Shown here: piece by piece, positions 42,842 to 46,516 of the stretch
How positions within the stretch are numbered: the first letter of the stretch is position 1
How the letters are laid out: every line of letters starts with the position of its first letter
Origin: a bacterium
GTDB taxonomy: Bacteria; CLD3; SB21
Assembly (NCBI GenBank): GCA_013360215.1
Contig: JABWCP010000002.1
Coordinates: 62,001-126,000, forward strand
DNA: 64,000 bases
Direction of reading: 5' to 3'
The notes under the pieces: model-generated
Database searches by the model: none
What the model saw: the letters and a program-made list of their open reading frames with translations, nothing else
Told to the model about the DNA's origin: nothing
Program-made: the position numbers and the translations under genes

Positions 42842-43594
42842 ATGAAAATAAAACTGTTTAAATCTATGGATACTCCCGTTGCACTTGTTACAGGCTCTGG
42901 TAAAAGGTTGGGCCGAAAAATAGCATTGGCTTTAGCTGAAACCGGCTACGATATCATTGTCAATTATCATCAGTCCGTTGCCGATGCCCGTAAAACAGAA
43001 AAACTTATACGTCAAATGGGACGCAAAACGGTGTTGATCAAAGCGGATGTTCGACGTCCGGATCACATAAAAAAAATGTTCAATGAAGTGATTAAGAAAT
43101 TCGGTAAAATTGATGTTCTGATCAATAACGCTGCGATTTTTCCCAAAAAAACCGAACTCCCAAATATCCCCGAATCTATATGGGATGATGTGATTGACTC
43201 GAATCTTAAATCAAGTTTTTTGTGTGCGCAAGAAGCTGCAAAATACATGCTACGCCAAAAATCCGGCAAAATAATTAACATCGCATCGTTAGGCGCATTT
43301 TTATCGTGGAAAAACTACATCCCATATAATGTATCTAAAGCCGGCGTAGTTATGCTAACGCGCAGCTTGGCTAAGGCTTTGGCGCCATATATCACTGTCA
43401 ATGCTGTCGCGCCCGGTACGATCATAGTCCCGGGAGAAGAGGTGTTGTCTGAACATTTACCGACAATGGATCGTATTCCTATGAAAAAATACGGCAAACC
43501 AGCCGATATCACGGCCGCAGTTTTATTCCTACTGCAAAGCGAATACATCACCGGTCAGATCATTGGTGTGGATGGAGGGGCTACAATTCCATAA
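42842..43594 (+). CDS. Short-chain dehydrogenase/reductase (pteridine-reductase or FabG-like)
   Basis: The 250-aa SDR has the nucleotide-binding loop TGSGKRLGRKIA (residues 17-28), NNAA at 95-98, and catalytic S149, Y162 and K166 (YNVSKAG). It ends VDGGATIP. The TGxxxRxGR form of the glycine motif indicates NADPH use and is shared with pteridine reductases. The substrate is otherwise open. M9 is an equally possible start, since neither start has a clear ribosome-binding site. Confidence 0.88.
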   Translation: MKIKLFKSMDTPVALVTGSGKRLGRKIALALAETGYDIIVNYHQSVADARKTEKLIRQMGRKTVLIKADVRRPDHIKKMFNEVIKKFGKIDVLINNAAIFPKKTELPNIPESIWDDVIDSNLKSSFLCAQEAAKYMLRQKSGKIINIASLGAFLSWKNYIPYNVSKAGVVMLTRSLAKALAPYITVNAVAPGTIIVPGEEVLSEHLPTMDRIPMKKYGKPADITAAVLFLLQSEYITGQIIGVDGGATIP

Positions 43595-43679
43595 TACGTG
43601 AGCCGTTCAAAGAAAAAAATTAAAAGGTAAAATTTTATTGATTTTTATTTATAATTCTATATATTTGCGACCGGATTTT

Positions 43680-43716
43680 GCCACAATAGCTCAGCGGTAG
43701 AGCAGCTGTTTCGTAA
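43680..43716 (+). pseudogene. 5' half of a split tRNA-Thr(CGT)
   Basis: The 37 nt fold as acceptor GCCACAA, TA, D-arm GCTC-AGCGGTA-GAGC, A, anticodon stem GCTGT and loop TTCGTAA (anticodon CGT), then stop matching a tRNA. The missing ACAGC-variable-T-arm-acceptor lies at 44805-44850, whose TTGTGGC pairs perfectly with this GCCACAA. The next bases (CCGGCTGC, then T's) form a terminator with the 3' part of this half. Confidence 0.88.
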
Positions 43717-43735
43717 CCGGCTGCTTTTTTTCTTT
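43701..43735 (+). terminator. Intrinsic terminator built on the tRNA half
   Basis: AGCAGCTG (43701-43708) pairs with CGGCTGCT (43718-43725), including one G-U pair, around a loop containing TTCGTAA. The run TTTTTTTCTTTT follows. A transcript from the tRNA promoter would end here as an RNA of roughly 50 nt. Confidence 0.75.
43706..43716 (+). repeat. 11-bp direct repeat, left copy (CTGTTTCGTAA)
   Basis: Identical to 44805-44815. Both are the anticodon stem-loop of the same tRNA, the usual core of tRNA-directed insertions. Confidence 0.9.
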
Positions 43736-43739
43736 TACA

Positions 43740-44136
43740 CCAATAATTAGAAGTAGTTATAATACTAAGTTCACTTGACAGGCGATTTAGCTGATAAGTG
43801 ATATTAGTAATAGTTGTGTTTTTTATTATTTTATTGTGTTAAGTTTGACACAGTTGATTAATATCAACATAAGATATGTCAACGTTTTGTTTTGAATCTT
43901 TTTACAATAATATAATGTGAAGGTGGATAAGGAAAGGGGTATTTCAAAAGATATTTCAATTTATATAATAAGATTTCTACGACCTTGTTTTTTTTATGCT
44001 TGCGCGCGTAAAAAAGAGTATCCCTGAATTAGTTGGAACATGGCACGTCAAAAACACATTGACAGTCAAGTCAAAAAGCAGGGATCATGTATAATGAACC
44101 TAATAGTTTCTCGTTTTTTGTAATAATGAGAAAATC
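43740..44136. other. AT-rich non-coding DNA inside the insertion
   Basis: No convincing gene. A TTGACA (spacer of 17) CATAAG promoter-like pair occurs in TTGACACAGTTGATTAATAT. A T-rich/A-rich hairpin (TTTTTTTATGC ... GCGTAAAAAA) near 43990-44015 could be a bidirectional terminator. TATAAT occurs close before the lipoprotein start. Confidence 0.4.
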
Positions 44137-44544
44137 ATGAAACAGTTATTTGTCTTTTCTATATTGGCTCTCACATCATGTGAAATTCAAAAAGAGCAAC
44201 AAACTTGTTTAAACGAAAATCATACAAGAAAACTTCATGCTACTGTATGGCGCGAACAGAACAATTCAATGTATGTCGTCTTTCATGAGAATGGATTTCG
44301 TTATGATGTTTATTTTTCAATCGAACCGCCAGTAGGTGAATGCTATAAAGTTCGTACTGCAAAATATACTGAGGGAGACGGGATTGTCCGGATAGGTGAC
44401 GTTGATTATATCTATACGCTCAAAGGCGACACACTACGACGCTACTTACAAGCAAGCTCTTTGATACTACAGGAAGTACTAATCGTAACAACAGTATCGT
44501 TTGACACACTTACTTACTGCCTTGGAAGCGAGAATCCGTTTTAA
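44137..44544 (+). CDS. Small lipoprotein carried in the tRNA insertion
   Basis: The 135-aa product has a lipoprotein signal (MKQLFVFSILALTSC, lipobox LTSC). The mature part contains ATVWREQNNSMYVVFHENGF, VGECYKVRTAKYTEGDG and a C-terminal LTYCLGSENPF, with three further Cys residues. No family was recognised. It is the only protein gene between the two tRNA halves. The ribosome-binding site is weak. Confidence 0.65.
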   Translation: MKQLFVFSILALTSCEIQKEQQTCLNENHTRKLHATVWREQNNSMYVVFHENGFRYDVYFSIEPPVGECYKVRTAKYTEGDGIVRIGDVDYIYTLKGDTLRRYLQASSLILQEVLIVTTVSFDTLTYCLGSENPF

Positions 44545-44569
44545 ACATGGTTATATTAAACGTGAGGAT

Positions 44570-44645
44570 TGGAGCCGATGATCAGGATCGAACTGATGAC
44601 CTTTTGATTACGAATCAAACGCTCTACCAACTGAGCTACATCGGC
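44570..44645 (-). tRNA. tRNA-Thr (anticodon CGT), intact, CCA encoded
   Basis: Minus-strand cloverleaf of 76 nt: acceptor GCCGATG/CATCGGC; D-arm GCTC-AGTTGGTA-GAGC; anticodon arm TTTGA-TTCGTAA-TCAAA; variable AGGTC; T-arm ATCAG-TTCGATC-CTGAT; discriminator T then CCA. All stems are perfect. The anticodon CGT reads ACG threonine codons, the same as the split tRNA around it, but the body sequence is different. Confidence 0.95.
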
Positions 44646-44804
44646 CAAAAAAATGCGCGTAATTATAACTAATTTTAATTATATTTTCAAGCCTAAAATA
44701 TGTTGTTTTTTGTAAGTTTAAAGTGATAAGTAAACTGATCAGTGCTGTTAAGTAAAAAGTTCTTTTAAATTATTGTTTTATTAGCGATTAGGTAAGTGGG
44801 GTTA
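44646..44804. other. Non-coding spacer between nested tRNA and 3' tRNA half
   Basis: AT-rich DNA that presumably holds the minus-strand tRNA promoter. The bases just before the right repeat (GATTAGGTAAGTGGGGTTA) do not form a D-arm or an acceptor strand that could complete the 3' half. Confidence 0.45.
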
Positions 44805-44815
44805 CTGTTTCGTAA
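44805..44815 (+). repeat. 11-bp direct repeat, right copy (CTGTTTCGTAA)
   Basis: Exact copy of 43706-43716 and the right edge of the putative insertion. Confidence 0.9.
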
Positions 44816-44850
44816 ACAGCAGGTCGCAGGTTCGAATCCCGCTTGTGGCT
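44805..44850 (+). pseudogene. 3' half of the split tRNA-Thr(CGT)
   Basis: It begins with the repeated CTGTTTCGTAA. It then supplies anticodon stem ACAGC, variable AGGTC, T-arm GCAGG-TTCGAAT-CCCGC, acceptor TTGTGGC and discriminator T, with no encoded CCA. The T-stem has one A-C mismatch (44828/44840), as expected of a decaying copy. A terminator follows directly, as for a former tRNA gene. Confidence 0.88.
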
Positions 44851-44854
44851 CTTC

Positions 44855-44889
44855 AAAACCTGATCATCATGTGATCAGGTTTTCTTTTT
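44855..44889 (+). terminator. Rho-independent terminator of the former tRNA gene
   Basis: A 12-bp perfect stem AAAACCTGATCA/TGATCAGGTTTT (44855-44866, 44872-44883) with a 5-nt loop and T-rich tail, starting 5 nt after the tRNA end. Confidence 0.92.
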
Positions 44890-45034
44890 AGCTCTCACTT
44901 ATCACGCTAATTAGCTTTTTACAAAACACCTCGTTCCAAATCCCATTTAAGGTTAATTCAAATTTTCTTGAATAAACCTTTATTTGCATTTATCTTTACA
45001 TCACTTTTCCTTTCCAAATAATATATACCCATTT

Positions 45035-46516
45035 ATGAACACAAGTGATGCCATTCAGTTTTATAACGTATTGGTAAAAAATCACGAACGGCGCATTCAA
45101 ACCGTTTTTGAAAAACATCTGAAGCAATGCGCAAAGGAAAAACTGACCTTTGGCGGGCGGCATATGTACAGTTTCCTGAGACCCAATTTTATTACACTGG
45201 AACAATACCGTTATATCCAATACGTTTGCAAGATACTTCGTAATGCCGTTACGAAATTTAAAAATGCCGCGCTCGAAAATCCAATCATCATGGAACAAGC
45301 CGGTCTTTTAGATAGGGAACGCGAACTCGTAATGATGGACCCGGGATATGACAGACTATCGATCACCGCCCGATGGGATTCATTTATGGCCGGCGACGAA
45401 TTAAAGTTCGTGGAGCTTAATGCCGAATGCCCTGCAGGGATTGCTTATTCCGATATTGCAGCCAAGGTGTATGATAGGTTACCGATGATACGCGAATTCA
45501 AAAAACACTATAACGTTGAAAAATTCGCCATCCGTCAGGAATTACTGAACGGATTATTATCTACGTACGCCGTTTGGCGAGGAAACAAAAAGAACAAGAA
45601 GCCACGCATCGCCATAGTAGACTGGAGAGAAGTACCGACATTTACCGAGTTTCAACTTTTTAAGGAATTTTTTAAATCTAAAAAATTAGACTGTATTATC
45701 GTAGATCCGCGTGATCTGACGTATGAAAAAGGTCGCCTCATGGCTGGAAAAAAGGAAATAGATCTGGTTTATAAGCGGATATTGACCAACGACTGTGTTG
45801 AAAAACCGGAGGAAACAAAAGCCTTAGTGCAAGCGTACTGCGATCAAAACGTATGTATGATCAATCCTTTTCGGGCTAAGCTTGTTCACAAAAAATCAAT
45901 GTTCGCTGTTTTGACCCATGAAAAAAATCAAAACCTTTTTAATGGTGAAGAGCTTTCAGTCGTACTCAAACATATCCCATGGACTCGAATGCTCCGTGAT
46001 GAAATCACATACTTTAACGGGAAACAGATTGATCTTTTTGACTACGTATCTACACATAAAAACAATTTCGTCATAAAGCCCAATGATGAGTACGGAGGAA
46101 AAGGGGTTTGTTTAGGAATGGAAGCTACCGACCAGCAGTGGAGCGCTGTGCTCCACGAGGCAAAAAACGGGGAGCACTATGTAGTGCAGGAGCTTGTAAA
46201 AATACCCAAACAACCTTTTCCAACAGTTATCAATGGTAATTTAGAGTTTGTTGATATGGTTGTTGATATGGATCCGTATGCATTCGGTCCGAATGTTGAA
46301 GGTATATTGACACGGTTATCGGCATCTTCACTAGCAAATGTTACTGCTGGCGGGGGTACAACCCCGACTTTTGTTATTACTAAAAAAACAAAAAAAGCAA
46401 AAAAAACTTTTAAAATTAAGGCGAGTAGAGTCAAATCCAAACAAAAGCCTAAATCAAGTTATTTAAAAACAAACATTAAAAAGACTAAAAAGAGCACTAC
46501 TATAAAAAAGGCGTAA
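45035..46516 (+). CDS. Circularly permuted ATP-grasp family ligase with Lys-rich C-terminal tail
   Basis: The 493-aa protein (from ATG 45035) resembles circularly permuted type 2 ATP-grasp/glutathionylspermidine-synthase-like ligases: RWDSFMAGDELKFVELNAECPAGI, VDWREVPTFTEFQ, NPFRAKLVHKKSMFAVL, NFVIKPNDEYGGKGVCLG, HYVVQELVKIP. These enzymes make amide bonds from a carboxyl and an amine with ATP. From about residue 448 the protein ends in 44 residues of which 19 are Lys, encoded over A7-A8 tracts. A TTG start at 44984 would add 17 residues not expected of the family. It precedes a YbdK-like ligase by 32 nt, suggesting a joint peptide-like product. Confidence 0.82.
   Translation: MNTSDAIQFYNVLVKNHERRIQTVFEKHLKQCAKEKLTFGGRHMYSFLRPNFITLEQYRYIQYVCKILRNAVTKFKNAALENPIIMEQAGLLDRERELVMMDPGYDRLSITARWDSFMAGDELKFVELNAECPAGIAYSDIAAKVYDRLPMIREFKKHYNVEKFAIRQELLNGLLSTYAVWRGNKKNKKPRIAIVDWREVPTFTEFQLFKEFFKSKKLDCIIVDPRDLTYEKGRLMAGKKEIDLVYKRILTNDCVEKPEETKALVQAYCDQNVCMINPFRAKLVHKKSMFAVLTHEKNQNLFNGEELSVVLKHIPWTRMLRDEITYFNGKQIDLFDYVSTHKNNFVIKPNDEYGGKGVCLGMEATDQQWSAVLHEAKNGEHYVVQELVKIPKQPFPTVINGNLEFVDMVVDMDPYAFGPNVEGILTRLSASSLANVTAGGGTTPTFVITKKTKKAKKTFKIKASRVKSKQKPKSSYLKTNIKKTKKSTTIKKA

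Follow-up and report, generated by a model that had tools for sequence, protein, structure and literature searches.

The native tRNA-Thr(CGT) gene at this locus is cut at its anticodon loop by about 1.1 kb of inserted DNA, which carries a complete tRNA-Thr(CGT) of its own on the opposite strand. The interrupted gene lies between an SDR-family gene and a gene for a circularly permuted ATP-grasp protein, within the 64,000-nucleotide stretch that we analysed (hereafter the window). The features of the locus are:

42842-43594, plus strand: flanking SDR-family gene (Pfam adh_short_C2), whose orthologue adjoins the intact tRNA in relatives (60-62% amino acid identity in L039-L042)
43638-43665, plus strand: promoter-like region of the broken native tRNA gene, TTGATT-16-TATATT (consensus scan, match only)
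43680-43716, plus strand: 5' half of the native tRNA-Thr(CGT), ending with the anticodon loop; 37/37 nt identical to the intact tRNA of relatives
43702-43735, plus strand: predicted hybrid intrinsic terminator at the left junction, with stem GCAGCTG (tRNA) / CGGCTGC (element), then T7
43706-43716, plus strand: left core copy, CTGTTTCGTAA, read directly
43717-44804, no strand assigned: inserted element, 1,088 bp (1,099 bp including one core), 33.3% G+C, without integrase
44137-44544, plus strand: 135-aa ORF (from the ORF list) with a lipobox-like N-terminus (LALTSC), the sole plausible cargo protein, for which searches found no relatives
44570-44645, minus strand: complete substitute tRNA-Thr(CGT) with encoded CCA (ARAGORN; Rfam 73.8 bits)
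44662-44690, minus strand: promoter-like TTGAAA-17-TATAAT upstream of the substitute tRNA (11/12 consensus positions, match only)
44805-44815, plus strand: right core copy, CTGTTTCGTAA, read directly
44805-44850, plus strand: 3' half of the native tRNA-Thr(CGT), including the core; one difference from relatives, in the T loop
44855-44883, plus strand: native tRNA gene terminator (terminator scan)
45035-46516, plus strand: flanking circularly permuted ATP-grasp gene (Pfam CP_ATPgrasp_2), also downstream in relatives (66-68% amino acid identity in L271-L273)

When joined, the two halves give a 72-mer that folds into a cloverleaf with a 7-bp acceptor stem and matches intact tRNAs at 99% identity, which bears out the view of an initial annotation, made from the sequence alone, that they belong to one tRNA-Thr(CGT). 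Direct reading agrees with its placement of the two 11-bp cores, which start 1,099 bp apart. ARAGORN calls the internal tRNA-Thr(CGT) and no other, and neither ARAGORN nor Rfam finds a complete tRNA at either junction of the insert, the right junction reaching 18.8 bits in Rfam, below the cut-off of 29. CCA is encoded in the internal gene and is absent from both the split gene and the intact genes of relatives. The annotation's complete opposite-strand tRNA with CCA and its junctions devoid of a full tRNA thus both hold.

Four members of the family (G002, G003, G005 and G006) carry an intact tRNA-Thr(CGT) that is 99% identical to the joined halves (E about 3e-30; 1 of 73 positions differs). 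In the 20 kb read from each of G002, G003 and G006, this tRNA lies between the SDR orthologue (60-62% amino acid identity) and the ATP-grasp orthologue with the next two genes (66-86% for these three). Judged by these neighbours, the intact tRNA of the three relatives is at the same locus as the split gene of the window, so the empty site that the initial annotation had proposed to look for exists. A fifth relative, G001, has a contig end inside the tRNA and the ATP-grasp gene on the expected side, and the native tRNA had no match in G004, a genome that is 91% complete. The tRNA of the relatives (L271-L273) faces the SDR gene, the opposite of its orientation in the window (42842-46516), and two genes that lie there between the tRNA and the ATP-grasp gene are missing here; from their sequences, one appears to encode a small protein of HEPN type and the other an ATP-grasp-like protein of 334 aa. 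The comparison therefore indicates that a local inversion of the tRNA unit and gene loss also happened in the lineage of the window, and we see no link between the inversion and the insertion.

The matches to relatives and the gene order common to both flanks rule out chance, and the splitting of the tRNA-Thr(CGT) gene is confirmed. That the genome is a draft in 56 contigs might suggest an assembly artefact, but the locus sits deep within a 262-kb contig, its core repeat is precise, the sequence on either side is native, and other genomes show the same architecture; we consider an artefact highly improbable. Another reading is that the interruption is a group I or group II intron from which the halves are spliced together, as known group I introns of bacterial tRNAs are located in the anticodon loop. 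This is scarcely credible for an insert that contains a complete antisense tRNA, places a terminator after the 5' half and shows no trace of a catalytic RNA core, with zero Rfam group I or II matches on either strand up to E = 5.

The insert has 33.3% G+C, the lowest value among the same-size segments sampled across the window, where the median is 41%. It is present in single copy, and searches of its own genome revealed no excision, circle or second copy. Neither the ORF list nor Pfam and other profile searches recovered an integrase or a recognisable mobility gene from it, in agreement with the initial description of an integrase-less element. For the 135-aa ORF, searches of Pfam, NCBIfam and sets of phages, plasmids and viral contigs gave no relatives, the genomes of relatives yielded nothing convincing, and PHROG returned only insignificant matches; the predicted protein structure has a mean pLDDT of 42. 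ACG accounts for 1 of the 12 threonine codons of this ORF, compared with 288 of 1,050 in window ORFs of at least 200 aa. If the insert were circularised, the junction would read GGGGTTACTGTTTCGTAACCGGC. The palindrome in the predicted junction (GGTTAC-TGTTTC-GTAACC), as read from the sequence, is given no weight. We also considered a phage helper: 15 viral contigs contain GTTACTGTTTCGTAAC, with no tRNA genes in the stretches examined and in mostly unrelated contexts, and we attribute these matches to chance. The pattern of the substitute tRNA is absent from the viral contigs.

Among all tRNAs of the loci collected in this study, those nearest to the substitute are the tRNA-Thr(CGT) of Lambdaproteobacteria locus L162 (70/76, 92%) and that of L178 (68/76). 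Since its nearest relative is in Lambdaproteobacteria, the substitute is probably foreign, acquired from another phylum. A tRNA census of the genome, which is rated 100% complete, found Thr-TGT and Thr-GGT together with a single complete Thr-CGT, which is the internal gene; whether another Thr-CGT exists had been raised as a check. ACG is the commonest threonine codon in the larger ORFs of the window, and on this codon usage the cell has a use for Thr-CGT, which does not imply a strict need for the substitute. The substitute could instead be incidental cargo, with Thr-CGT dispensable because tRNA-Thr(TGT) can read ACG and the disruption neutral, so that nothing had to be compensated. Both the presence of tRNA-Thr(TGT) in the genome and the lack of a native tRNA match in G004 are in keeping with this. 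The prevalence of ACG argues against it, as does the exact identity of the lost anticodon and the anticodon on the insert, here and at five other loci, and we regard it as unlikely.

The predicted terminator at the left junction combines one stem strand from the tRNA with one from the element. Intrinsic terminators of this kind occur at three sites in the 64 kb, against 0.08 expected from mononucleotide shuffles. We infer that the junction terminator keeps the old tRNA promoter silent; without it, transcription would proceed antisense into the substitute. A promoter sequence of Bacteroidota-like form (TAnnTTTG) gives no more than a hint of the affiliation of the bacterium.

Together, these data are best explained by a small, horizontally acquired integrative element that inserted site-specifically into the anticodon loop of tRNA-Thr(CGT), broke the gene and compensates with a foreign tRNA-Thr(CGT); we put the probability of this reading at roughly 0.75. 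The initial annotation had proposed that an integrase-less element disrupted the tRNA and supplies a replacement, and the empty sites in relatives, the junctions without a tRNA and the internal position of the sole complete Thr-CGT support that proposal. Site-specific recombination would have put the element into the loop, and because the shared core is only 11 bp, insertion would destroy the tRNA with neither junction rebuilding it, leaving the element's complete foreign tRNA to compensate. The inserting enzyme would be a tyrosine recombinase acting in trans, supplied either by a co-resident or lost helper or by the host as one of its integron-integrase/XerA-like enzymes. Transcription from the old tRNA promoter would stop at the hybrid terminator, and the substitute, served by a separate promoter on the opposite strand, would now read ACG codons; the host would therefore depend on the element unless precise excision regenerated the native gene.

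The genome encodes XerC, XerD and three integron-integrase/XerA-like recombinases (C10, C41 and C12). In the stretches read, none of the five adjoins a tRNA, and none could be tied to the insertion site. A second integrase-less insert, of 1.5 kb, lies at tRNA-Val(TAC) of the same genome, where the target is restored. Because of this second small insert, we favour a helper in trans that would act on small cassettes. The tRNA-Val(TAC) insert (L069 1976-3657; G000:C26:34976-36657, minus strand) has 31.5% G+C and small ORFs of unknown function, and the locus runs from the full tRNA through the insert to a copy without the first 7 nt. Partial tRNA copies near other tRNA genes of the genome are confined to Val(TAC) and Gly(CCC). 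A 19-bp palindrome, GTCACGC-N-GCGTGAC, has only 2 exact copies in the 735 kb read, both in partial tRNA duplications; the copies adjoin tRNA-Val(TAC) and tRNA-Gly(CCC), and at Gly(CCC) the palindrome replaces the anticodon arm of the truncated copy. A related form lies within a 50-bp tandem repeat that follows tRNA-Arg(CCT) where a contig ends; these own-genome sites are L221 near 16680, L236 8-53 and L072 3526-3628.

We scanned 84,980 species genomes for a tRNA-Thr(CGT) 5' half that is not followed by its own stem and inspected the resulting 60 stretches. About 25 are truly interrupted genes, mostly in Chloroflexi, and the others are intact tRNAs with other stems. In one architecture the target is rebuilt, with the 5' half followed by 0.4-3 kb of DNA and then a full tRNA (L141, L152, L159 and L165), or by arrays of such units (L142 and L181). 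No integrase was recognised at these loci by phmmer with two recombinases of the window's own genome, a search that divergent integrases would escape. The array at L181 (G070:C29 3368-8291, Anaerolineales) comprises three small inserts of 1.3-2 kb at tRNA-Thr(CGT) with lipoprotein-like genes; no integrase was recognised in this stretch, which is partly N.

In the other architecture, a different complete tRNA-Thr(CGT) lies just within the left end, as found in Silicimonas (L154), Sedimentitalea (L145), Accumulibacter (L131), Omnitrophota (L134) and Chloroflexi (L164); the Omnitrophota substitute is on the opposite strand, as in the window. Silicimonas is the only one of these in which both halves were located, the 3' half being on another contig (L217), and its acceptor strands GCCCCAA and TTGGGGC pair. 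AGTAGGG repeats at both ends of this Rhodobacterales element (L154 and L217, the latter being G063:C123) resemble integrase arm sites, and its interior is lost at contig ends. The patterns used did not find the 3' halves in Accumulibacter, Omnitrophota or Chloroflexi L164. The Sedimentitalea locus, in an isolate genome, likewise yielded no 3' half and no recognised integrase in about 40 kb, and is probably a scar where the substitute remains. By their sequences, similar tRNA-Thr(CGT) swaps, some of them decayed, are thus present in Rhodobacterales, Accumulibacter, Omnitrophota and Chloroflexi, and as independent cases they speak for disruption with compensation.

Wherever both ends are visible (L154/L217, L159, L181 and the window), the shared sequence includes the loop heptamer TTCGTAA. 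The anticodon stem of the substitute differs from that of the replaced gene in 6 of 6 substitutes. In the collected loci, a collection-biased set, the loop could be read in 51 distinct Thr-CGT tRNAs, and in 46 of these it is preceded by [CT]TG[TA]; the other five are all substitutes, and the substitute of the window (TTGA) is a borderline case. As a lead only, recoding of the substitutes may protect them from cleavage by the same recombinase.

The same swap could have had another history, in which a larger prophage or conjugative element with tRNA-dependent integration shrank to the present insert, a CIME-like relic. Internal deletions would have removed the integrase and most genes, and the substitute would have been retained to meet the need of the host. 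The lack of an integrase in the insert fits this history, as do the probable Sedimentitalea scar and the definition of CIMEs, in PMC7563491, as decayed elements that keep their att sites. Yet the cores and both halves have hardly mutated, which makes the insertion look recent; the 135-aa ORF is open and not phage-like; and the same genome holds another element comparable in size and build, with small inserts recurring in Chloroflexi. We consider this history possible but the less probable of the two, and our confidences in them overlap because both accept the swap and differ on how the insert became small.

The closest parallel to site-specific insertion with compensation is the tRNA-dependent lysogeny of Fionnbharth, LeBron and other actinobacteriophages (Guerrero-Bustamante and Hatfull 2024, PMC10865867). 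These phages encode their own tyrosine integrase, and their tRNA dependence was proven by mutation, no normal lysogens forming without the tRNA; a wider occurrence of tRNA-dependent integration was only suggested by the authors (PMC10865867). As in the window, they use a short core within the tRNA gene of the host (about 10 bp, against 11 bp here), neither junction rebuilds the tRNA, and the element carries a tRNA of the same isotype (PMC10865867). Unlike them, the insert is 1.1 kb long, has no tyrosine integrase ORF and shows no convincing PHROG or phage match, and its function is inferred. The insert shares their core, non-rebuilding junctions and isotype and is nevertheless not a member of that group, because it lacks an integrase and phage character. 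Our literature search, which reached few subscription papers, found no case of non-phage tRNA-dependent integration. A Sinorhizobium survey describes phage integration that substituted a host tRNA gene by a foreign-looking one (PMC11476347).

In anatomy the insert resembles CIMEs, described in PMC7563491 as small cargo elements with att sites at both ends and without recombinase or transfer genes: it has the core at both ends and contains a lipoprotein-like ORF and a tRNA. The known CIMEs presented there derive from ICEs or IMEs, in tandem with which they were mapped; an unsystematic search did not find a parent element of the insert. The insert also differs from the CIMEs described there in replacing the RNA gene that it destroyed. 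Genomic islands at tRNA and tmRNA genes similarly integrate site-specifically into an RNA gene (Islander, PMC4383910; Dehalococcoides ssrA, PMC3146451), can stand in tandem and in some cases lack recombinase genes (PMC4383910; PMC3146451), and serine recombinases have been proposed for the Dehalococcoides ssrA islands (PMC3146451). Classical tRNA-targeting islands rebuild the target from their own att sequence, as the tRNA-Val(TAC) insert does and the window insert does not. Integron gene cassettes are also about 1 kb, with one ORF and a recombinase supplied from elsewhere. We rejected this assignment: GTTRRRY is absent from both the core CTGTTTCGTAA and the circle junction GGTTACTGTTTCGTAACC, and the target is a tRNA gene, not attI.

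More tentatively, and in our view doubtful as yet, the insert could represent a class of helper-dependent mini-elements, distributed among several phyla, whose target is the tRNA-Thr(CGU) loop TTCGTAA. Such elements would supplant the host tRNA for good and be addictive through one 76-nt gene; the altered anticodon stems of their substitutes would make poor targets for re-insertion, and the element end would terminate the broken gene.

A strategy of breaking and replacing a tRNA has so far been proven only for some temperate phages, and here it would be carried out by a minimal, non-phage, integrase-less element. Our results suggest that this logic extends to non-phage DNA of only 1.1 kb and to several phyla, and that host tRNA genes are exchangeable across phyla by mobile elements. 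The locus provides a minimal model, open to testing, of an element stabilised by owning a housekeeping tRNA, and a split tRNA gene in any annotation is a reason to seek a substitute tRNA.
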